A DNA stretch of 64,000 nucleotides from Hyphomonas sp. (lineage in GTDB: Bacteria > Pseudomonadota > Alphaproteobacteria > Caulobacterales > Hyphomonadaceae): NCBI RefSeq assembly GCF_013823385.1, contig NZ_PNMA01000012.1, positions 1 through 64,000 on the forward strand, written 5' to 3'. Shown here piece after piece: positions 44,999-54,925 of this stretch. A program made the position numbers and the translations under genes. How positions within the stretch are numbered: the stretch's first letter is position 1; each line of letters starts with the position of its first letter. The notes below the pieces were generated by a model, which ran no database searches, was not told the origin of the DNA, and saw only the letters and a program-made list of their open reading frames with translations.

Positions 44999-45430
44999 TT
45001 AGCGTTCTTGGCGGCCGAGGCCCATTTTCTTGGCCAGTTTTGACCGCTGCGCAGAATAACCTGGGGCGACCATGGGATAGTCTGCCGGCAGGCCCCACTT
45101 CTCGCGATACTCATCCGGCGACATGTCATATTTTGACCGCAGGTGCCGTTTCAGCGATTTGAACTTCAGCCCGTCTTCGAGGCAGATCAGATAGTCGTGC
45201 TGTATGGATTTCTTCACGGAAACAGCCGGTTTCAGCCGCTCCGGTTCGCGTATGGGATCGCCAAGTTCCACGAGGGAGCGGTGAACATTGCGAATCAAGT
45301 CCGGAAGTTCTGTCGTCTGCACCGCATTATTCCGGACATAAGCAGCCACAATTTCTGTAGCATATACAACGAAATCGTTCGATCTGACCGACACGTTCTC
45401 TTCTTCCGGCATACCCTGCACCCCGTCCAT
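44999..45430 (-). CDS. mucR: Ros/MucR family transcriptional regulator
   Basis: The protein (143 residues from ATG 45430; 153 from TTG 45460) is a MucR-type global regulator of surface polysaccharide and cell-cycle or virulence genes in alphaproteobacteria. The core DYLICLEDGLKFKSLKRHLRSKYDMSPDEYREKWGLP and the tail YPMVAPGYSAQRSKLAKKMGLG are characteristic. In Ros the zinc is held by CxxC and two histidines. Here the second Cys is Asp, as in MucR, and the last His position is Lys/Tyr (RHLRSKY), so zinc binding is doubtful. The N-terminal half is the oligomerisation domain. A palindrome overlaps its upstream region. Confidence 0.9.
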   Translation of the reverse strand: MDGVQGMPEEENVSVRSNDFVVYATEIVAAYVRNNAVQTTELPDLIRNVHRSLVELGDPIREPERLKPAVSVKKSIQHDYLICLEDGLKFKSLKRHLRSKYDMSPDEYREKWGLPADYPMVAPGYSAQRSKLAKKMGLGRQER

Positions 45431-45445
45431 TACTTGGGAAGCGTA

Positions 45446-45459
45446 TGTCACCTCTGACA
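45446..45459 (-). promoter_or_regulatory. Palindrome in the mucR start region
   Basis: TGTCA-CCTC-TGACA is a 14-bp inverted repeat overlapping the TTG start option and located 16 bases before the ATG at 45430. On the minus strand, TTGACC lies just upstream and could be a -35 box, with TACGCT as -10 after 16 bases, so the repeat would sit between the promoter boxes. Autoregulation is known for MucR-type genes in rhizobia; whether this repeat is the site is inferred. Confidence 0.4.
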
Positions 45460-45558
45460 AAGGTCAAATACAGAAATTCCGAGACTGTCTGACAGGCCGC
45501 CAGGCGGGCGGCCTCCATTGAGGTTTTATTGCATCCGTGAGCGCGTGTCCCGGGCAGG

Positions 45559-45596: not shown

Positions 45597-47375
45597 TCAG
45601 CTCGACAGGAAGGACATCAACAGCACAGCCGCCAGGATAACGGCGGTCCAGATCGATGCGCCGCCGGACAAACCACCCCGCGCGATCTCTCCTCGCGGAC
45701 TGAAGGCAGATTCCAGCCGCTTGTAGGCCCTCTCCGACAGCCGCGAGAACATGGCGGACATCGCCGGCCCCATCTTGCCCCAGACCGTGCCCGACCATTG
45801 CACGAAGCCGTAGCCGGCCTTGCGGTAGAACCAGTCGGTATCGAGGATCGTGCCGGGCTTCTCTGCCGGATAGAGCGCGAAGCGCTTGAGCAGAATGAAG
45901 GCAAAGGTAGCCAGTACCAGAAGCTGCATCTGGGTGAGGATGTGCTCCAGCGTGAAGGGCTGATAGCTGGAAGCCTCAACCGGATATGGCAGCAGGCTGT
46001 AGAGCCACTGATAGCCAAAGCCCGGAATGATCGCGGGGAGGCCGACGGCGATACACAGGAAAGCGGCCATACCCATTGCCAGAAGCATGTTGAATGGCGC
46101 TTCCTTCACCCGCTTGCCACTGTCGTGGCCGAAGAAGGCAAAGTACGGGATCTTGATGCCCGAATGCTCAAGCACACCTGCCGAGGCAAAGAGCAGCATC
46201 AGCCAGACGACAACCATGCCGGCATCCGACACGCCTTCATACGCCACCGCGCTCATTGTCAGCGACTTGGCGACGAAGCCGGAGAAGAGCGGGAAGGCCG
46301 AGATCGACAGGCCGCCGATGATGCAGAACAGCGTCGTCCAGGGCATGGAGCGGTAAAGCCCGCCCAGTTCCGACGCCTTGGTCGTACCGGTACGGTAAAG
46401 CACCGCGCCCATGCTCATGAACAGCAGGGCCTTGTAGATGATGTGCGCAAAAGCATGCGCGCTGGCGCCATTCAGGGCGAGCGCGTTGCCCACCCCGGCT
46501 GTGCCGACCCCGATGGCGCAGATCATGAAGCCGACCTGGTTGTTCAGCGAATAGGCCAGAACCCGGCGCAGATCGTTCTCGATCACGGCGAAGAAGACCG
46601 GGAAGACGGTCATGATGGCGCCGATCCAGATCAGCGCATCGAAGCCTGGGAACAGGCGCGCAAAACCATAAACCGCAAGCTTCGTGGTGAAGGCAGACAG
46701 CACCACCGCCCCGACCACGGAGGCCTTGGGATAGGAATCCTGCAGCCAGTTATGCATGAAGGGGAAGGCCGCCTTGATGCCGAGCGCGATGAATATGTAG
46801 ATCGCGCCGGGATCGCTGAAGCTCTGGAAGGCCTCGAGCGAGAGCGTGCCATTGTAGCGCCAGACATAGGACAGGCCATCGAGCAGGATCACGCCCGACA
46901 GGATCTGGATCACCAGATAACGCATCGAGGCAAAGTAGGCCGCCCGCGTGCCCGCCTGCAGCACCAGGAACACCGAGGTAATGGCGGTGATTTCCCAGAA
47001 GATGAACAGCGTCATCAGGTCGCCCGCAAAGCTCGCCGAAACCGCCGCGCCGGCATAGGCCAGCGCCATGCCATCCTGGCGGGGATTGTTCGTGTGCAGC
47101 GCATAGATGGCATTGAGCAAAGACGCGATCAGGAAGGCGAGGCCGAAGATGAAGTTCAGGCTGTCGACGCGGTAAAAGCTGAAGGTGATGTCGAGCGCTT
47201 CGGCGGTCAGCAGGTCCACCTCATGTGGCGCCATCACGAGCAGCGCGATCGCGACGATGGGCGTGCCGACGGTAAGCACCTGGCGAACCTGGCGGTATGG
47301 GATGAAAAGGGCAGCGATGCCCACAAGGATCATCAGCCAGCCGGGATTGAGGGCAGCAAGCCAAGCCGGCATCAT
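45597..47375 (-). CDS. Antiporter-like NuoL/MrpD-type subunit (third of three)
   Basis: This 592-residue protein with about 14-16 helices belongs to the antiporter-like subunits shared by Mrp antiporters and complex I. Key polar residues are present: Glu in LMTLFIFWEITAITS, Lys in ALGIKAAFPFMHNWLQ, Lys in FTTKLAVYGF, and Lys in AFAHIIYKALLFM. A C-terminal extension (from about 480) includes PGTILDTDWFYRKAG and an amphipathic stretch before a last helix, reminiscent of NuoL-like C-termini. It is the last gene of the operon and overlaps the small gene before it by four bases. It may replace the N-terminal part of MrpA, but that is inference. Confidence 0.88.
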   Translation of the reverse strand: MMPAWLAALNPGWLMILVGIAALFIPYRQVRQVLTVGTPIVAIALLVMAPHEVDLLTAEALDITFSFYRVDSLNFIFGLAFLIASLLNAIYALHTNNPRQDGMALAYAGAAVSASFAGDLMTLFIFWEITAITSVFLVLQAGTRAAYFASMRYLVIQILSGVILLDGLSYVWRYNGTLSLEAFQSFSDPGAIYIFIALGIKAAFPFMHNWLQDSYPKASVVGAVVLSAFTTKLAVYGFARLFPGFDALIWIGAIMTVFPVFFAVIENDLRRVLAYSLNNQVGFMICAIGVGTAGVGNALALNGASAHAFAHIIYKALLFMSMGAVLYRTGTTKASELGGLYRSMPWTTLFCIIGGLSISAFPLFSGFVAKSLTMSAVAYEGVSDAGMVVVWLMLLFASAGVLEHSGIKIPYFAFFGHDSGKRVKEAPFNMLLAMGMAAFLCIAVGLPAIIPGFGYQWLYSLLPYPVEASSYQPFTLEHILTQMQLLVLATFAFILLKRFALYPAEKPGTILDTDWFYRKAGYGFVQWSGTVWGKMGPAMSAMFSRLSERAYKRLESAFSPRGEIARGGLSGGASIWTAVILAAVLLMSFLSS

Positions 47376-47815
47376 TCTTCTCCCTCAAAGGCTTTGGGTT
47401 CGCCCGCATTCAGGCGGTCAGCAATCGCCGGATCGATATCGGCAGGCGGACCGCTGAGATCGCCATAATAGTTTTCGTCACGGCGCAGCAGCTTGCCGAG
47501 CGGCCAGCCCATGAGCACGACGAACGAGAACGCCGCAAAGCCCCACAGCGCGTAAAAACCGACAGCATTTGCGATGCCGATCTTTTCATGCCGGGGCACC
47601 ACAAGATCGAGCAGAACCAGCAGGATCGACAGGCCAGCCATGCCCCAGAAGATGATCCCGCCAATGCCCTTCTTCTCGGTCCAGCCGAAGAGCACCCGCG
47701 ACATCGGATGAATGCCGTCTTCCGAAGTCCGGCTCATGGCATTCACCTTTTCAGCCGCCGTTTTCACGAAGCGGCCGGACGTATCCCGGACGGGAGGGGT
47801 CGTGTCGTTGCTCAT
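47372..47815 (-). CDS. Small membrane protein in the antiporter operon, 147 aa
   Basis: The protein has a hydrophilic N-terminus (about 50 residues, SNDTTPPVRDTSGRFVKTAAEK), two membrane helices (about 52-70 and 82-105; GGIIFWGMAGLSILLVLLDLVV, FYALWGFAAFSFVVLMGWPLG), and an acidic tail. It overlaps both neighbours by four bases (ATGA-type), so it is part of the same translational unit. I recognise no standard Mrp subunit in it. It could be an accessory subunit or a coupling factor between the second and third large subunits. Function unknown. Confidence 0.75.
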   Translation of the reverse strand: MSNDTTPPVRDTSGRFVKTAAEKVNAMSRTSEDGIHPMSRVLFGWTEKKGIGGIIFWGMAGLSILLVLLDLVVPRHEKIGIANAVGFYALWGFAAFSFVVLMGWPLGKLLRRDENYYGDLSGPPADIDPAIADRLNAGEPKAFEGEE

Positions 47816-49320
47816 GGCAGCGCGGCCTCCTGAACTGTGGTTGTGGCCGCATCCAGCGCGGGCGCAAGGAAATCTCCCATCGGATCAACCAGCAGGAAGA
47901 GGATGAGGCAAAGGAAGGCGGTGAACAGCGGCGCCGCCACCGTCAGCGCGGGCGCCCCGCCCGGCCGCTTGAATTCCTTCACCGGAGCTTCCGGTGGCGG
48001 CGGCATCAGCGCCAGGATCGGGATCGGCAGCAGATAGGCAATGTTCAGCACCGAAGACGCAATCAGGATGAACGGCACCCAGTCTGCCCCACGGTCGACC
48101 GCGCCCTGCATCAGCTCATACTTCGGCCAGTCCCCAGCAAAGGGCGGCACCCCGATGATCGAGAGGGAGGCCATGAAGAAGGCGATGAAGATCAGCGGCA
48201 TCTTCCGGCCAAGGCCGCGCATGTCGGAGATATTGGTGAGACCCGTGGCCACATAGATAGCCCCGGCGCACATGAAGAGCGTGATCTTGGCAACGGCGTG
48301 GGCCGCGATCTGCAGCGAGCCGCCCATGAAGCCGGCCTTGTCCGCCAGCATGGCACCGAGCGTGACATAGGCCAGCTGCGCCACCGTTGAATAGGCAAGA
48401 CGCGCCTTGAGATTGTCCTTGGTCAACGCAATCAGCGACGCGACCACAATGGTGATACAGGCCACATCCATCAGGAATTCGCGGGATGGGGTCGCGTTCA
48501 GCAGGTCAGCGCCGAAGATATACATCGACACCTTCAGCACCGTGAACACCCCTGCCTTCACGACCGCCACGGCGTGCAGCAGCGCAGAGACCGGCGTTGG
48601 CGCCACCATCGCGTTCGGGAGCCAGAAATGGAACGGCATGAGCGCCGCCTTGCCGATACCGAACACGAACAGCAGCAGCAGCGCGCTGGCAACGACCGGC
48701 GAAATCTGGACATTCGCCAGAAGGCCGCCCTCGACAAAGTCGAGCCGCTGACCGGCCACGAACCAGGTCCACATGATGGCTGTCAGGAAGAAGCCGATGG
48801 AGGTGCCAAGCAGGGTCAGCAGGTAGATGCGCGCGCCGCGCTGGGCGGCTGCGTCTCCCTTGTGCGCGACCAGCGGATAGGTCGACAGCGTCAGCACTTC
48901 ATAGAAGATGAAAAGCGTGAACAGGTTGGCCGCCGACGCAACGCCCATGGCGCCGCAGATGGCGATGGCGAAGCAGATGTAGAAGCGCGTCTGGTTCCGC
49001 TCGCGGTTCCCGCGCATGTAGCCGATGGAATAGAACGAGTTCACGATCCACAGGCCGCTGGCCACGATCGCAAACAATGCGCCGAGCGGCTCCAGCTTGA
49101 ACGCAATCTCCAGCCCCGGCGCGGCCTGGCCGACGAACAGTTCCGGGCGCGCGCCAGACGACACCAGCGCCGCCAGCTGGATCACCACCGCAAACAGGGC
49201 AATCGATCCGACAATCGTGACACCTTCCCGGATGTTCGGGAACTTGCCCATGGCGGCAATGCCCGCCGCGATCATCAGCGGCAGGAGAATGACGGCGGCA
49301 ATGAGGGTTTCCGGGGTCAT
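47812..49320 (-). CDS. Antiporter-like NuoM/MrpD-type subunit (second of three)
   Basis: This 502-residue protein has about 14 helices with the conserved polar residues of the family: Glu in LFTLFIFYEVLTLSTY, Lys in GIGKAALMPFHFWLPNA, Lys in AVVKAGVFTVLK, and Lys in IAAHAVAKITLFM. These residues form the proton path across the subunit. It overlaps the first MrpD-like gene and the small gene after it by four bases each. Direct orthology to one Mrp subunit cannot be assigned without a tree. Confidence 0.9.
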   Translation of the reverse strand: MTPETLIAAVILLPLMIAAGIAAMGKFPNIREGVTIVGSIALFAVVIQLAALVSSGARPELFVGQAAPGLEIAFKLEPLGALFAIVASGLWIVNSFYSIGYMRGNRERNQTRFYICFAIAICGAMGVASAANLFTLFIFYEVLTLSTYPLVAHKGDAAAQRGARIYLLTLLGTSIGFFLTAIMWTWFVAGQRLDFVEGGLLANVQISPVVASALLLLFVFGIGKAALMPFHFWLPNAMVAPTPVSALLHAVAVVKAGVFTVLKVSMYIFGADLLNATPSREFLMDVACITIVVASLIALTKDNLKARLAYSTVAQLAYVTLGAMLADKAGFMGGSLQIAAHAVAKITLFMCAGAIYVATGLTNISDMRGLGRKMPLIFIAFFMASLSIIGVPPFAGDWPKYELMQGAVDRGADWVPFILIASSVLNIAYLLPIPILALMPPPPEAPVKEFKRPGGAPALTVAAPLFTAFLCLILFLLVDPMGDFLAPALDAATTTVQEAALP

Positions 49321-50855
49321 CGGAACGCCTCCAGACCAAGGGCAGCCACGGCCCCGTCACGGGCAAGGCCCAGCGGGAAATCGGCGGCAATGCCGAAATA
49401 AAGATTGGCGAGCGCCAGTATCCAGAGCGGCACAAGGATAAGCAGCGGCGCCTCCTTATGGGTTTTGCGCGGGTTGATGGGCGGCTGGAAGAATGCCGCC
49501 TGCAGAATGCGGCCGACATAGAAGACAGCCAGGAAGCTGGAGAACACGACGAGCAGCACCGCCCACCACCAGCCTTCGGCAAACAGCGCGTAGCCGAGCT
49601 GCAGCTTGGAGATGAAGCCTGCCGTGAGCGGCACGCCGATCAGCGAAAGACCGGCAATTGCGAAGGCCGTCATCGTCCATGGCGCCGTGCGGCCAAGGCC
49701 GGCAAAGTCACGTATCGTCGTGCCCTGATGGGTCATCACGATCCCGGCAATGGCCATGAACAGCGCGCCCTTCATCAGGGCGTGGTTGAAGAGGTGAAGC
49801 AGGCCCGCCGCCACGCCCGGCGCGGTGGCCAGTGACACGCCCAGCAGCATGTAGCCAACCTGCGCTACAGAGGAATAGGCCAGGACGCGGCGCACATCGG
49901 TCTGGAACACCGCCTGGAAGCTGCAGATGACCATCGCTGCAATTCCCAGCGGCGCCAGGATCCAGGAGAAGCTTGCCAACTCAAAGCTGTATTCCGGGCG
50001 GAACACCGTGAACAGGAAGCGCACCAGCGCGTAGAGCGCCACCTTGGTTGCCGTTGCCGAGAGGAAAACGGTGACGAAGCTCGGGCTGTAGGAATAGGCG
50101 TTGGGCAGCCATTGGTGGAGCGGCCACATCGCGGCCTTCAGGCCGAGGCCGACGATGATGAACGCGAAGCCGACCTGAACCGACCGGCTGGTGGTGAGCG
50201 CCGGAAGGCGGTCTGCAATATCGGCCATGTTCAGCGTACCGGTGGCCGCATAGAGGAAGCCGATACCGATGATGTAGAAGCTGGCGCCCAGCGTACCCAT
50301 GATCAGATAGTTGAAGGCCGCCGGCAGCGCCCGCCGATCGCGCTGCGCACCCATGGCAACCATCACATAGGTGGCCAGCGAACTGATCTCCAGGAAGACG
50401 AAAAGGTTGAACGCATCCCCTGTCGAGGCGACGCCCAGGAGGCCCGCCATGCAGAGCAGGAAGGCCGCGTAGAACATGCCGAGCTTGTTGCGGTTCTTGA
50501 GCTCGGAGGCAATCGTGGGCCAGGAAAATACCGATGCCAGAAAGCCGATACCGGTCACCAGCAGCAGGATCATCGCATTCAGCGCATCGGTCCGGAACTC
50601 GATGCCGATGGGCGGCGGCCAGCGGCCGATTTCATAGGACAGGACCCCTGTCGGCGAGGATTGCACCAGCCCCAGCGTGACGATGGCCAGATAGAAGGAT
50701 ACCGCCGCCGTCAGGACGGAAATGAGCCAGGCCGCACGCCCGTTGGGCAGGATCGCCACGAGCGGCGCAATCAGCATCGGCACTGCAACGATCAGTATCG
50801 GCGCGTGCGCAAGCGCCCAGGCGGGCGCGGAGGTCAGCACGGATTCCAGCGTCAT
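49317..50855 (-). CDS. mrpD: Na+/H+ antiporter subunit D-like protein (first of three)
   Basis: The 512-residue protein has about 14 helices. Polar residues are Glu in LFVFLEISSLATYVM, Lys in GLGLKAAMWPLHQWLPNA, Lys in SATATKVALYALVR and Lys in LFNHALMKGALFM. Its position directly after the C subunit, with an ATGA overlap, makes it the best candidate for the true MrpD. MrpD-type subunits carry protons or cations in the complex. The cation actually exchanged (Na+, Li+ or K+) is not decided by the sequence. Confidence 0.92.
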   Translation of the reverse strand: MTLESVLTSAPAWALAHAPILIVAVPMLIAPLVAILPNGRAAWLISVLTAAVSFYLAIVTLGLVQSSPTGVLSYEIGRWPPPIGIEFRTDALNAMILLLVTGIGFLASVFSWPTIASELKNRNKLGMFYAAFLLCMAGLLGVASTGDAFNLFVFLEISSLATYVMVAMGAQRDRRALPAAFNYLIMGTLGASFYIIGIGFLYAATGTLNMADIADRLPALTTSRSVQVGFAFIIVGLGLKAAMWPLHQWLPNAYSYSPSFVTVFLSATATKVALYALVRFLFTVFRPEYSFELASFSWILAPLGIAAMVICSFQAVFQTDVRRVLAYSSVAQVGYMLLGVSLATAPGVAAGLLHLFNHALMKGALFMAIAGIVMTHQGTTIRDFAGLGRTAPWTMTAFAIAGLSLIGVPLTAGFISKLQLGYALFAEGWWWAVLLVVFSSFLAVFYVGRILQAAFFQPPINPRKTHKEAPLLILVPLWILALANLYFGIAADFPLGLARDGAVAALGLEAFR

Positions 50856-51352
50856 GCCGAAGCCTCTTTGATGTCTTTGTCTGCTTCGAGTTCCTGGGCG
50901 AACGCAGTTTGCATGTCGATCTCGCGAACCTCATCGGCTTCGATGGTGCCATAGGCTTCGCGAATGCGGACGATCAGGGCGAGGCCAAGCGAGAGCGTGG
51001 CCACGCCAACGACGATCGCCGTCAGCATCAGGACGTGCGGCAGCGGATTGGAATAAAGGTGATGCAGGTCGGCGAAGCGTTCACCGGTTGCCGCCAGCAG
51101 CGAGTCTGGACCGTTCACCCCGTCATGCACCGGGTCGGAATGATACGGCGTATCTTCCGGCAGAAGGATCGGCGCTGTGCCGCCACTGACTTTGGCAAGC
51201 GACACATAGAAAAGACAGATTGTCGTCTGGAAGATCGACAGCCCGACGAGGCGCTTGATGAGGTTTTCAGCAGAGAAGGCAATGTAGAGGCCGATCATCA
51301 TAAGACAGATGATTGCCCAGTACCCTGCGCGTTCGAGAACAAATTCGACCAT
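50852..51352 (-). CDS. mrpC: Na+/H+ antiporter subunit C (NuoK-like)
   Basis: This 166-residue protein has the three-helix NuoK/MrpC core: GYWAIICLMMIGLYIAFSAENLIKRLVGLSIFQTTICLFYVSL, then LPHVLMLTAIVVGVATLSLGLALIVRIREAYG. The glutamate in SAENLIK is a conserved family residue. Between helices two and three is an extended loop (PEDTPYHSDPVHDGVNGPD), and there is a charged C-terminal tail. It begins four bases after the B subunit stop and overlaps mrpD by four bases. Confidence 0.92.
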   Translation of the reverse strand: MVEFVLERAGYWAIICLMMIGLYIAFSAENLIKRLVGLSIFQTTICLFYVSLAKVSGGTAPILLPEDTPYHSDPVHDGVNGPDSLLAATGERFADLHHLYSNPLPHVLMLTAIVVGVATLSLGLALIVRIREAYGTIEADEVREIDMQTAFAQELEADKDIKEASA

Positions 51353-51355
51353 GGC

Positions 51356-51808
51356 TTACCAGTCCTCGTCACGGATTTCAGCCACGCGGCCAGCCAGCGC
51401 GTAGAAGATGGTGATCATCGCACCTGTGACCGCAAACAGCACGCCCAGCTCAACGATGATGATACCGGCATGCTGGCCGTCATGACCACCCGGCGGCTCG
51501 CCGAACAGCGCCTGGTATTCCAGGAACAGGCCGCCCTGCATCATCGACCAGAAACCGACGCCGACATAGATCAGCACACCGACTGCAGCGAGCGTACGCG
51601 CAAATACTGGCGGCACGGCGCGCATTGTAGTGGCGAGGCCGAATGTGAGCGAATGAAGGATGATGGCAACGGCCAGCACCACACCAGCCTGGAAGGCACC
51701 GCCCGGCCCTACTTCACCATGGAACTGGACGTAAAACCCGTAAATCACGATCAGCGGGATGAAGCATTTTCCGATAACGCGCAAAATCACGTGATGATCA
51801 CTCTTCAT
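51356..51808 (-). CDS. mrpB: Na+/H+ antiporter subunit B
   Basis: This 150-residue protein with four helices has the MnhB/MrpB family core: KCFIPLIVIYGFYVQFHGEVGPGGAFQAGVVLAVAIILHSL, with the HGEVGPGGAFQAG loop very characteristic, and later ELGVLFAVTGAMITIFYALAGR. It overlaps the preceding MbhD-like gene by four bases. Confidence 0.94.
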   Translation of the reverse strand: MKSDHHVILRVIGKCFIPLIVIYGFYVQFHGEVGPGGAFQAGVVLAVAIILHSLTFGLATTMRAVPPVFARTLAAVGVLIYVGVGFWSMMQGGLFLEYQALFGEPPGGHDGQHAGIIIVELGVLFAVTGAMITIFYALAGRVAEIRDEDW

Positions 51809-52416
51809 GATGCATCGCCCTCTTTGCCCTTGCGCTTTTTGTTCCGCAGCGTTTCGGCGAGCGACCGTTCGCCAAAGCCCAGCAGCATGGCAACGGCCAG
51901 ACCGGCAACAAAGACCACGACTGTCTCGCCCATCGTGTCGAAACCACGATAGCTTGCCAGAACCGAGGTCACGACGTTCGGAACGCCGGTATCGAACCAG
52001 TTCACATGCACATAGGTCATGCCCGGTCCGGTATTGGCGGGAGAGTTGGGATCGCCGAGGCCCGGCAGGTCAACTGTTGCATAAATCAGCATGGCAGCGG
52101 TGGCGCCGCAAACCAGGAACGGGCCGAGTTTCGACAGGGGCTTTTCGGGCTTGGCGGTGCGCGCGGTCAACAGCATCGCCCCCAGAAGCACCGCCGTGGA
52201 CATGCCGGCCCCGACCGCCGCTTCGGTATAGCCCACATCCACCGCGTCAACGGAAATATACCAGGCAGCAGAAACGAGCGAATAGACGCCCGACAGCATG
52301 ACGATGGCAAACAGGCTGCGCAGCCTTGCAATGGCGAGCGCCACGATAAACAGGATAGCCAGAAGCGTGATGTTGATCAGCAGCGGGCCGGCATCTGCCG
52401 TAAACAGGTCCCTCAT
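51805..52416 (-). CDS. MbhD/DUF4040-type subunit, counterpart of the MrpA C-terminal part
   Basis: The 203-residue protein begins with three helices of MbhD/DUF4040 type (ITLLAILFIVALAIARLRSLFAIVMLSGVYSLVSAAWYISVDAVDVGYTEAAVGAGMSTAVLLGAMLL), with the conserved DVGYTEAAVGAG motif. It continues with a second part similar to MbhE (VNWFDTGVPNVVTSVLASYRGFDTMGETVVVFVAGLAVAMLLG), with the RGFDTMGE motif. In canonical Mrp these two parts are the C-terminal end of MrpA; here they are a separate gene and the NuoL-like N-terminal part is missing. It overlaps both neighbours by four bases. Confidence 0.9.
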   Translation of the reverse strand: MRDLFTADAGPLLINITLLAILFIVALAIARLRSLFAIVMLSGVYSLVSAAWYISVDAVDVGYTEAAVGAGMSTAVLLGAMLLTARTAKPEKPLSKLGPFLVCGATAAMLIYATVDLPGLGDPNSPANTGPGMTYVHVNWFDTGVPNVVTSVLASYRGFDTMGETVVVFVAGLAVAMLLGFGERSLAETLRNKKRKGKEGDAS

Positions 52417-52781
52417 GCTTCGTCCTCCGGATTAGCGGCGCCGACAGGACCAATCCGCGGCTGCAGGCCGGCAACATGCGCGGCGTTCACAAGCGCATGC
52501 GAGGCCGTGGGGCTGGTGAGGAACAGGAATATGAAGATGCACAGCAGCTTCACCAGCACCAGCCAGTTGGGCGCCATCAGGGCCATGCCGATCAGGATCA
52601 GCGCGGCGCCGGATGTGTCGGTCACGCTGGCCGCGTGCAGGCGGGTATAGAAGTCAGGAAAGCGCAGCACGCCGATAGCGCTGACAATGCAAAGAAGCCC
52701 GCCGGCAAGGCAAGCCACCCCGCCGAGCGGGTGGCGCAGGAACTCCCAGAAATTTCCAATATTTGCGAAGAAGTCGCCCAT
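52413..52781 (-). CDS. mrpG: Na+/H+ antiporter subunit G
   Basis: This 122-residue protein with three helices matches MrpG: LGGVACLAGGLLCIVSAIGVLRFPDFYTRLHAASVTDTSGAALILIGMAL, with the typical RFPDFYTRLHAAS motif, and SPTASHALVNAAH. ATG at 52781 (MGDFFANIG) follows the mrpF stop by one base; an upstream start would overlap mrpF needlessly. It overlaps the next gene by four bases. Confidence 0.93.
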   Translation of the reverse strand: MGDFFANIGNFWEFLRHPLGGVACLAGGLLCIVSAIGVLRFPDFYTRLHAASVTDTSGAALILIGMALMAPNWLVLVKLLCIFIFLFLTSPTASHALVNAAHVAGLQPRIGPVGAANPEDEA

Positions 52782-52782
52782 G

Positions 52783-53079
52783 TCATTCACCGCCTTTGGC
52801 AGGATCAACCCGCCGCGCAAGAGGCACCTGGAAGGAGCGGTAGCGGAAGAACTTCAGGATCGCGATCGTGGTGACGAAGTTGATCAGCGTGTAGATCATG
52901 GCGATGTCCAGGAAGTCGGGACGGCCCATCACATAGCCAAGCAGCCCTATGACGAGCACGGTCTTGGTGCCGAACGCATTGACCGCCAGAATGCGGTCAT
53001 AGAGCGTCGGCCCCATCAGCGCCCGCACGAGCAGCAACACCATTCCGATCAGAATGGCGATCAGAGCAGCAGCTGTCAT
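52783..53079 (-). CDS. mrpF: Na+/H+ antiporter subunit F
   Basis: This 98-residue, three-helix protein has the family pattern LLLVRALMGPTLYDRILAVNAFGTKTVLVIGLLGYVMGRPDFLDIAMIYTLINFVTTIAILKFF. The conserved RxxxGPTxxDRxLAxN motif is intact. It overlaps mrpE by four bases and abuts mrpG. Confidence 0.94.
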   Translation of the reverse strand: MTAAALIAILIGMVLLLVRALMGPTLYDRILAVNAFGTKTVLVIGLLGYVMGRPDFLDIAMIYTLINFVTTIAILKFFRYRSFQVPLARRVDPAKGGE

Positions 53080-53609
53080 GCGCGGGTCTCCTTGGGGTCA
53101 CAGGCAGCAGCGCAACGCTTGTCCATTTCAATGAACCCCTCCGGCTCCGTGCCAGACTCGTAGAGCCCGTGAACCAGCAGCTTGTCTCCCTCGATTTCCA
53201 CAGTCACCGTGCCCGGTGTCATCGTGATCGAATTGGCGAACGTCACTCTGGCGAGGTCGGTCTTGCAGGTGGTTTTGATCTTCGCGAGGGTCGGCGTGAT
53301 GTCCAGATCAGCGCGCAGGCACGCCCGGATCACGACCCAATTCGACTTGACGACTTCGACCGCCAGCCAGGGATAATACTTCATCAGCTGAGGCAGCCGC
53401 ACATAGGGCGCGCCTTCGCGATCGATGATATCCAGCCGGTAGGCAAGTATCATCGTCAGCAGCACCGAGGCGCCGCCAAATCCGAGCATCAGCGGCTTGT
53501 AATGGCCCGAATTACCGAGCCAGAAAGCCACCAAGGCCGCCAGTAGTCCCAAGAAATACGCCACAGCGCCCCTCAGCTCCGACCGATCCCAATTTGGTGA
53601 ACGACCCAC
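53076..53609 (-). CDS. mrpE: Na+/H+ antiporter subunit E
   Basis: This first gene of the operon encodes 177 residues with two to three N-terminal helices (AVAYFLGLLAALVAFWLG, LMLGFGGASVLLTMILAYRL) and a soluble part with ANSITMTPGTVTVEIEGDKLLVHGL, the diagnostic MrpE motif (NSITLTPGT). GTG at 53609 is the start used here, and the preceding gene ends 49 bp away. Subunit E is peripheral in the Mrp complex. Confidence 0.93.
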   Translation of the reverse strand: MGRSPNWDRSELRGAVAYFLGLLAALVAFWLGNSGHYKPLMLGFGGASVLLTMILAYRLDIIDREGAPYVRLPQLMKYYPWLAVEVVKSNWVVIRACLRADLDITPTLAKIKTTCKTDLARVTFANSITMTPGTVTVEIEGDKLLVHGLYESGTEPEGFIEMDKRCAAACDPKETRA

Positions 53610-53658: not shown

Positions 53659-54861
53659 CTAACGCCCGAAGACGAGGCGAGCAGTGCGTTGGGCGGTCGA
53701 GAACTCAGCCTCTTCATTGGCGGGCTCTCCCAGGGATTGGGCGTGGCGTAGCGCCGCAGGCGAGTAAGCGGAGGACAAAGCCCAGTTCCAGTAGCGCAGC
53801 GTTGTCTGCGCCTTGAGGACCGAAAGCACCTCATATGTTTCCGCAACCAGCTGGAATTGCGGATGGGGCACACCGGGATCGATTTCCAGCGGCCGGCGGA
53901 GCGCCGTCCAGAGCATGCCGAGATATTCCCGCTTGAGACCCGTCGCCTTGCAGAGCACTGCCAGAGCTTCCCCGCCCGGATCAGAGAGTATCTTGGCGGC
54001 CGTTACCGGTTTGATGCCCGAGAGATAGCCGATCTCCTGAGCAATCTTTGCTTCCATGCCAGAACTGGCCGCAGCGTGAACAGCGTCTTCAAGGCTGTCA
54101 TAGGGGCTGCGCTCGATCGCCGCCCGGTTACGTTGCCGCCGCTCGATCAGCTGCAGCGCCTTGCGCGCGACAGGATCCTGCCACCCCTCCACAGCCGCCA
54201 TTTCGAACACATCCGAGCAGAGAGAGATCATCTCCTGACGGTCAGCCGCATGGCGTGTCAGTATTTTCCGGCGCGTGGCCGCATCAGCCCACCAGAACAT
54301 CGCCATCGCGTGGGAAGGGCGCAACTCGATCCGGTCGACCAGGAGCGGACAATAGCTGGGCTCATCCCGCGAGGCCGCGATGAGCCTGTCCATGGTTGTC
54401 TCGGCGAAGGCCGCTGTCCGGTTGGCCAGCAGCTCCCGCATGACGTGCGGCTCGCCAACGTCTGAAATGGCAGCGGTGACGGCAACCGAGAGGTTCCGCC
54501 GCCGGGCCACCGTCAGCCGGTGCTCAGGGGTCGTCTGCCGGACGATCTCTGCAAGGTCGCAGTCATCGAACGCTTCACTTTCCTCCAGCAATGGCCGGGC
54601 TACGGTAAAATTCGACTGGGCAAGATACCGGAGGAGGCGCCGGGGCGCTTCGCGGCTCGCCGCCAGGCGGGTGGAACACATAACGCGCTCACGCTCTCCG
54701 GCATGAAACAGCATATCGAGCAGAATATCGCCCGCCATCTGCCGGTCCTGAGGCGGGATACGGGATGCCGGCATCGAGACAACATCCAGTATCCGGCGGA
54801 GAAGCGCTTCCTGAGCAGCCCCTACCGGCAGATGTGTTCTGGACTCTGTCGCGTCAGCCAT
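53659..54861 (-). CDS. DUF2336 domain-containing protein
   Basis: The 400-residue soluble protein is a series of HEAT-like helical repeats: ISDVGEPHVMRELLANRTAAFAETTMDRLIAASRDEPSYCPLLVDR fits the DUF2336 family of alphaproteobacteria. The C-terminal part has GLKREYLGMLWTALRRPLEIDP. No catalytic motif is visible. Such proteins are seen near cell-surface or signalling genes, but their role is unknown. ATG 54861 is preferred to TTG 54867. It lies 49 bp upstream of mrpE and could be co-transcribed. Confidence 0.8.
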   Translation of the reverse strand: MADATESRTHLPVGAAQEALLRRILDVVSMPASRIPPQDRQMAGDILLDMLFHAGERERVMCSTRLAASREAPRRLLRYLAQSNFTVARPLLEESEAFDDCDLAEIVRQTTPEHRLTVARRRNLSVAVTAAISDVGEPHVMRELLANRTAAFAETTMDRLIAASRDEPSYCPLLVDRIELRPSHAMAMFWWADAATRRKILTRHAADRQEMISLCSDVFEMAAVEGWQDPVARKALQLIERRQRNRAAIERSPYDSLEDAVHAAASSGMEAKIAQEIGYLSGIKPVTAAKILSDPGGEALAVLCKATGLKREYLGMLWTALRRPLEIDPGVPHPQFQLVAETYEVLSVLKAQTTLRYWNWALSSAYSPAALRHAQSLGEPANEEAEFSTAQRTARLVFGR

Positions 54862-54925
54862 GCGCAAACCTAAGGCGTTGCCGGGCAGGTTTGCATCAAT
54901 TTATTAATGAGAAATGGAATCTGGT

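Follow-up and report, generated by a model that had tools for sequence, protein, structure and literature searches.

Mrp antiporters of groups 1 and 2 contain a single large MrpA and two antiporter-like subunits. Group 3 is defined as lacking mrpA and carrying only mrpD, sometimes in several copies (PMC8415708), although it has also been described otherwise, by irregular gene order (PMC5703873). The stand-alone Mrp of Pyrococcus furiosus, encoded as mrpEFGBB'CD, uses Na+ on the evidence of deletion strains (PMC8415708). In the group 3 mrp locus of Ca. Nitrospira alkalitolerans, mrpD is followed by two NuoM/NuoL-like genes (PMC7784846), and in the rhizobial green complex I, NuoL is replaced by two MrpD-like subunits (PMC9040806; PMC7415380). 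Here, these systems are compared with a ten-gene operon of Hyphomonas sp., located on the minus strand at 45597-53609 of a 64,000-nucleotide stretch of contig NZ_PNMA01000012.1 (positions 1 to 64,000; the window). Its reading order is E-F-G-X-B-C-D1-D2-S-D3, where X is an MbhD/E-like protein, S a small protein and D1-D3 the large antiporter-like subunits. The ten proteins probably assemble into a single membrane complex that works on its own as an Mrp-type antiporter of monovalent cations and protons, belonging to group 3 in the broad sense; it is likely to join an arm of complex I length to cation/proton antiport. As a kind, the gene set singled out in an earlier note on this DNA is not new, as related systems are described in PMC8415708, PMC7784846 and PMC9040806; group 3 loci without mrpA and with several mrpD are already known, and NCBIfam models exist for these proteins. 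What look distinct are three separate families of pump, a subunit that is conserved but unnamed, a lateral helix (HL) of NuoL length and a changed cation site.

The P. furiosus Mrp resembles the operon in having no mrpA, separate MbhD/E-like and MrpB genes and the order E-F-G-B-B'-C-D, but it has one D where the operon has three (PMC8415708). The Nitrospira locus, known by description in a paper that speaks of mrpA-G, shares the two NuoM/NuoL-like genes after mrpD (PMC7784846). The passages on group 3 systems available from PMC8415708 and PMC7784846 do not mention a small S protein. The membrane modules of the membrane-bound hydrogenase (MBH) and membrane-bound sulfane reductase (MBS) of Pyrococcus share the gene order with the operon; however, they carry hydrogenase-like redox subunits, and their antiporter-like subunits number two (MBS) or one (MBH). 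Canonical Mrp of groups 1 and 2 has homologues of E, F, G, B, C and D, and the N-terminal fold of its MrpA is that of D3.

Gene content and the search for MrpA

The genes are listed in reading order, with lengths in amino acids (aa).

53076..53609, minus strand: MrpE, 177 aa, GTG start; PF01899 at 93.1 bits against a cut-off of 27
52783..53079, minus strand: MrpF, 98 aa; PF04066 at 64.6 bits
52413..52781, minus strand: MrpG, 122 aa from the ATG; PF03334 at 94.6 bits, TIGR01300 above cut-off
51805..52416, minus strand: X (MbhD+MbhE), 203 aa; PF13244, PF20501 and NF009159 all above cut-off
51356..51808, minus strand: MrpB, 150 aa; PF04039, NF009162 above cut-off
50852..51352, minus strand: MrpC/NuoK-like, 166 aa; PF00420, NF005624 above cut-off
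49317..50855, minus strand: D1, MrpD-like, 512 aa; PF00361 at 214 bits
47812..49320, minus strand: D2, second antiporter-like subunit, 502 aa; PF00361 at 181 bits
47372..47815, minus strand: S, two-helix membrane protein, 147 aa; no Pfam or NCBIfam match
45597..47375, minus strand: D3, third antiporter-like subunit, 592 aa; Proton_antipo_M

The Pfam families in the operon are MNHE, MrpF_PhaF, PhaG_MnhG_YufB, MbhD and MbhE, MnhB, Oxidored_q2 and three copies of Proton_antipo_M. A 'subunit D' model is the top NCBIfam match for each large subunit. For D1 this is PRK12662, which stays under its cut-off, and D3 scores 680.9 bits against PRK12668 (NF009310, Na(+)/H(+) antiporter subunit D; cut-off 564). 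Adjacent genes overlap by four bases at seven of the nine junctions. The exceptions are B/C, with a three-base gap, and F/G, where the listed G frame (52413-52820) opens at a TTG within F. Judged from the sequence, MrpG more probably starts with the ATG at 52781, in which case F and G do not overlap.

Much of the earlier note is thus confirmed. Open frames and Pfam domains agree with ten leftward genes in the order it gave, the C-terminal part of MrpA is a gene of its own (X, 203 aa), three proteins carry Proton_antipo_M (PF00361), and the order E-F-G-D/E-B-C is indeed like that of Mbh, as also of P. furiosus mrpEFGBB'CD (PMC8415708). Its claim that MrpA is missing extends to the genome (4.18 Mb, 172 contigs, 100% complete). 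PF00361 occurs at six places: D1-D3 and three on contig C10, where one protein is confirmed as NuoL (TIGR01974 above cut-off) and the other two occupy the NuoM and NuoN places. An MrpA family has its best match in this genome in the NuoL on C10, and neither the PF00361 places nor the MrpA family search revealed a hidden full-length mrpA. As in group 3 Mrp, no mrpA was thus found in either cluster or genome, and the canonical arrangement, an N-terminal pump and a C-terminal MbhD/E part in one MrpA, is not seen, X being separate. The operon also lacks the redox subunit that marks complex I, MBH and MBS clusters: neither the ten gene products nor the eight neighbouring proteins scanned include a redox-complex subunit, and the genome's single match to PF00346 (49-kDa/hydrogenase large subunit) lies with the nuo genes on contig C10. 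In some other loci X and MrpB lie in one long frame (L140, L142, L143, L150-L153 and others).

Three subunit families, the lateral helix and green complex I

Each of D1, D2 and D3 comes out as a single clade in the careful tree, with support from 100/99 (D1) to 100/100, and the D2 and D3 of green complex I fall inside the respective clades (100/100 each). By this phylogeny, D2 and D3 are separate deep families and not recent mrpD copies. Of the links between families, only that of NuoL with MrpA is firm (99/95); the best tree places D2 with them, but at 79/72, and D1 with MrpD at 51/91. A grouping of D3 with MrpA gives a p value of 0.179 in the approximately unbiased test (p-AU), and D3 as an MrpA/NuoL orthologue is neither favoured nor rejected. 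Of the two findings that the earlier note named as counting against it, a full-length mrpA elsewhere in the genome was not found, but D2 and D3 do group with the described green pair.

The three large subunits of the window contain the Glu of transmembrane helix (TM) 5 and the Lys of TM7, TM8 and TM12, as the earlier note had claimed for the proton path. Among the ten-gene loci (99 rows of D1, 102 of D2 and 109 of D3, green rows excluded) retention is near-complete, the exceptions being a TM7 Asn in 5/109 D3 and a single residue left unread in D1 and another in D3. Positions follow E. coli reference numbering, part of which is given in PMC4938563. The five ten-gene D3 with TM7 Asn come from L071-L074 and L077; the same Asn occurs in the D3 of L079, a relative with a small genome, and in that of five aligned green loci (L057-L060, L171). 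One residue separates the families: a His at the position of NuoL H254 (TM8) is present in D2 (102/102), MrpA (8/8) and NuoL (2/2), and is not found in D1, D3, MrpD or NuoM. This helix-VIII residue is among those picked as NuoL/MrpA-specific (PMC4938563).

The modelled fold of D3 is that of MrpA and NuoL. Its AlphaFold2 model has a mean predicted local distance difference test score (pLDDT) of 81.7 and a predicted template modelling score (pTM) of 0.80, and shows TM15 (476-498), a 45-residue helix HL (514-558) and TM16 (572-591). It aligns with Bacillus pseudofirmus MrpA (VIA-align Z 41.7) and with NuoL chains (Z ~40-42), the match covering the pump body and extending into HL. The best sequence match of D3 in the PDB is an MBS chain, 6u8y_X (1.1e-44, NADH dehydrogenase subunit M), which is taken as MbsH', a subunit that has HL.

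HL length was measured as the number of residues from an aromatic anchor ahead of HL to the centre of TM16. The median is 36 in MrpA of two-pump systems (range 34-39, 19/31 measured), 63 in the NuoL of three-pump complex I (58-65, 30/31) and 65 in ten-gene D3 (58-69, 126/128). In the four-pump green complex the D3 value is 87-88 (8/8), and all eight lie among nuoK and nuoM, with none of E, F, G and X present. The search was bounded (50-80 residues for NuoL, roughly 45-85 for ten-gene D3 and roughly 26-56 for MrpA), so that very different lengths would show as misses. Those recorded were due to the motif in 12/31 MrpA, to a variant motif in NuoL L226 and D3 L309, and to a contig end in D3 L159. 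L059 was dropped from the ten-gene set as a green D3, L304 was left out, and the anchors of L308 and L310 were corrected. Rows were added from the family of one green carrier; the context was checked for the three green ones and for 7/8 others, all but L190. Published comparisons tie inserts of ~26 residues to one extra pump (PMC9040806). The NuoL-like, three-pump length of HL in ten-gene D3 thus argues that D1, D2 and D3 are lined up, with D3 outermost, and is the best evidence for such a row. Together with the fold, it fits the suggestion of the earlier note that the third subunit, with its C-terminal extension, takes a distal position like that of MrpA or NuoL.

The same D2-S-D3 cassette occurs in green complex I. 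On Sinorhizobium meliloti pSymA the order within the complex I cluster is nuoJ-nuoK-D2-S-D3-nuoM-nuoN; D2 and D3 are annotated as antiporter subunit D proteins and S as a hypothetical protein, and no NuoL is listed in 29.5 kb of the cluster, in a gene table incomplete by its own description. In all eight green clusters examined (L057-L060, L171, L313-L315), D2-S-D3 is followed by two antiporter-like frames, and E. coli nuoK, nuoM and nuoN find matches; nuoJ is matched in five of the eight. No antiporter-like frame was found in these clusters besides D2, D3 and the two after them, and models of E, F, G, X, B and C made from the ten-gene loci had no match there. E. coli NuoL is 28-32% identical to the green regions, as expected for any antiporter-like subunit. 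Green complex I thus shares with the operon a homologous cassette, with D2 and D3 of the same clades and S, here an unnamed 84-aa protein, between them. It differs in having NuoJ/K/M/N and redox subunits and no E-F-G, the cassette standing where NuoL would, and in a D3 HL that is 22-23 residues longer. Because S travels with the D2-D3 pair into green complex I, keeping its place between the two, its sequence context suggests a subunit of the D2-D3 end.

Cation path and rival explanations

In the proposed complex, MrpD-like D1 would adjoin the cation module of X, B, C, E, F and G, with D2 in the middle of the row and D3 at its far end, the long lateral helix running back along D2 and D1 and tying the row together. 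This three-pump row would stand in for the two-pump MrpA-MrpD pair, and the role of MrpA would be shared out, its C-terminal part falling to X, its end position and HL to D3 and perhaps, in view of the TM8 His, some of it to D2; S would be an accessory subunit at the D2-D3 end. Protons would probably enter via the D2/D3 end and be relayed from D3 through D2 to D1, with coupling at the D1/X/C boundary. The charge relayed through D1 might then move a cation the opposite way, through F-X-C.

The cation path was read against that of PMC7419157 by alignment to 6z16_F, 6z16_C and PDB chains. Glu65, Asp160 and Glu164 of X align with Glu706, Asp792 and Glu796 of MrpA, and these positions are kept in 93/94 (one gap), 94/94 and 94/94 X homologues, respectively. 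MrpF Asp29 is kept in 91/91 and MrpG His42 in 92/92, Pro86 being present in 85/92.

Several observations weigh against the proposal. MrpF Asp35 has been called invariably conserved (PMC7419157), and the window's MrpF has Asn34 at this position of the Anoxybacillus flavithermus protein (alignment to 6z16_F), as do all 91 homologues of this operon type counted in the alignment column; in 12 later regions it is Asn in 11 and Ser in one (L306). Both MrpC His37 and His40 are gone in 98/98: His37 becomes Thr, Ser, Val or Ala, His40 is non-His throughout, and the preceding Ser36 is Gln in 93/98. Canonical Mrp is acidic at MrpF 35, and solved Mrp has His37 and His40 in MrpC; since both features are changed in the operon, Na+/H+ antiport is not simply transferable to it. 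On the structural side, the best tree sets D3 apart from MrpA/NuoL, although the grouping of D3, MrpA and NuoL together is not rejected (p-AU 0.356), and blocks of the modelled HL have a pLDDT of only 51-71. HL length is itself a sequence proxy, with anchors of our choice in bounded ranges; the step from ten-gene to green D3, 22-23 residues, is slightly under the 26-27 found elsewhere, and the published five-pump complex has a 26-residue HL insert relative to the rhizobial green subunit (PMC9040806). Finally, S was not found in the distant relatives L079 and L304, the latter leaving no room for it.

The change in MrpF was set against a control. When 100 Pseudomonadota genomes were searched for MrpF, 31 of them gave 37 matches, and 30 loci were taken from these, with Asp in 25, Asn in four and one unread. 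The Asn proteins are those of the window, of G007 and G106, which are of this operon type and carry the D3 family (the G106 operon was read), and of G091, the L304 variant. Other fetched loci supplied seven canonical MrpF, four with Asp, two with Glu and one unread; because of the Glu, position 35 is better called acidic than strictly Asp. MBH and MBS align with Asp at this position, and they too lack part of the MrpC histidines. By these alignments, Asn at MrpF 35 goes with this operon type. Because the acid and the histidines are changed, the ion, or the affinity for it, may differ from that of canonical Mrp.

These residues bear differently on the explanations that compete with the proposed three-pump antiporter. 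The operon could encode an ordinary group 3 Mrp Na+/H+ antiporter, its additional mrpD being redundant or extending the arm, with canonical ion and mechanism. This account falls only somewhat short of an even chance, as its category is already described (PMC8415708), the Glu706/Asp792/Glu796 positions, MrpF Asp29 and MrpG His42 are all kept, and MBS and MBH do without some MrpC histidines, yet P. furiosus Mrp uses Na+. It accords poorly with Asn at MrpF 35 in 91/91 loci, against Asp in 25/30 controls and in MBH/MBS, and with the deep separation of D2 and D3, which do not appear as recent mrpD copies. The substitutions could instead mean that the altered cavity serves K+ or some other monovalent cation, or only protons. 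The MrpF Asp35 to Asn and MrpC Ser36 to Gln changes and the loss of His37/His40 point this way, but several acids of the path are kept and replacement of Asp35 by Glu or Asn is not so detrimental in Bacillus subtilis (PMC7419157), and exchange of something other than Na+ is less likely than not. A division into two machines, an EFG-X-B-C-D1 antiporter and a D2-S-D3 module docking to complex I or another complex, could draw on the replacement of NuoL by D2-S-D3 in green clusters and on a P. furiosus Mrp that works with one MrpD (PMC8415708). However, complex I is already supplied with a NuoL in this genome, and HL of D3, of three-pump length here and longer in green complex I, fits a row of exactly D1-D2-D3; two machines are accordingly a very improbable outcome.

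A single stand-alone antiporter, the reading preferred here, can be put in a fuller form: three pumps, an exchangeable D2-S-D3 cassette and a remodelled cation site, with a ratio or an ion different from canonical Mrp. We advance this form tentatively, as a possibility rather than an expectation. The suggestion of the earlier note that the complex could couple more ions per cycle is likewise conjectural. If it is true, the series of pump number against HL length would be filled out, with MBH at one, Mrp and MBS at two, the operon at three, green complex I at four and Manganitrophaceae at five. This matters for the number of ions or protons moved per antiporter-like subunit and for the role of the lateral helix, in complex I and Mrp alike. 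A redox-free complex of three such subunits would be a simpler place than complex I to measure stoichiometry against subunit number, and the cassette common to the operon and a respiratory complex I offers a ready module swap. The operon occurs in named cultured marine genera (Hyphomonas, Henriciella, Maricaulis).

Distribution, the small subunit and flanking genes

The operon recurs widely. Across 115 sources, among them four green regions and the nuo region of the window's genome, loci uncut by a contig end repeat the gene order E-F-G-X-B-C-D1-D2-S-D3; frames were read for S in 112, D3 in 114 and D2 in 108, cut contigs explaining part of the difference. The gene set is kept far beyond chance. 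The full set with S was also found in 11 of 12 further regions from 39 sampled alphaproteobacterial genomes, picked for neighbouring antiporter-like frames, and in six of another seven, the remaining one running into a contig end beyond C. The locus counts are not independent, some species occurring in both genome collections. NF009310, the D3 model, is passed in 25/397 sampled Pseudomonadota genomes, four of which (L057-L060) are green complex I, and in 13/121 genomes of the family of one green carrier; by context these 13 comprise five green loci, seven ten-gene loci, of which one is truncated at the end of its contig, and one unchecked. S is present in 48/61 genomes searched, the window's included. 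Given this recurrence, the ten-gene operon is an ordinary possession of Alphaproteobacteria and no oddity of this genome.

In a scan of genome contigs for D3, the best 80 of 164 loci are mostly titled Hyphomonas, Henriciella or Hyphomonadaceae; further titles among these 80 are Maricaulis, Rhodospirillaceae, Betaproteobacteria, Gammaproteobacteria, Thermoanaerobaculales and Myxococcota, with many metagenome assemblies. The closest named record is Hyphomonas polymorpha PS728, with a D3 98% identical. Four loci titled Acidobacteria or Ca. Sulfopaludibacter (L095, L101, L102, L117) have a D3 72-79% identical to the window's, three of them with the operon around it, and are probably misnamed or misbinned assemblies. 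L304 (G091) is divergent, reading E-F-G-XB-C-D1-D2-D3' without S, and its D3 reaches just 162 bits.

S is the least familiar member of the set. Its conservation and the changed cation-path residues go beyond the earlier note, which listed the S gene alone. The 112 frames, the window's and four green ones included, align with a conserved Gly-Phe-Tyr stretch and an RxE[DN]YY end, and membrane helices are predicted at 51-72 and 87-110. Because positive residues flank both helices, we infer that both termini lie inside the cell, on the HL side. S has no credible match in Pfam, NCBIfam or the PDB. Weak Pfam matches of single members (best 0.00076, MFS_1, 3/30 members) and a designed-protein PDB entry (E 0.0014) were set aside as chance. 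The S model is of low confidence (pLDDT 73.2, pTM 0.36) and gave no Foldseek match, an absence from which nothing is concluded. The literature searched contained no description of S or of the HL and Asn pattern, and absence from print is not claimed. A D2-S-D3 fusion, prompted by long open frames (up to 1221 aa), was rejected, as the fetched regions show separate genes.

Just upstream of the operon and running the same way is a gene for a DUF2336 protein (53659-54867, minus strand). A ROS/MucR regulator (44999-45460, minus strand) lies just downstream, on the D3 side, where a PAS protein is also found. Of 21 loci examined, nine have DUF2336 beside E and seven have a ROS/MucR-type protein beside D3; this is local synteny only, from which no partner function is concluded.

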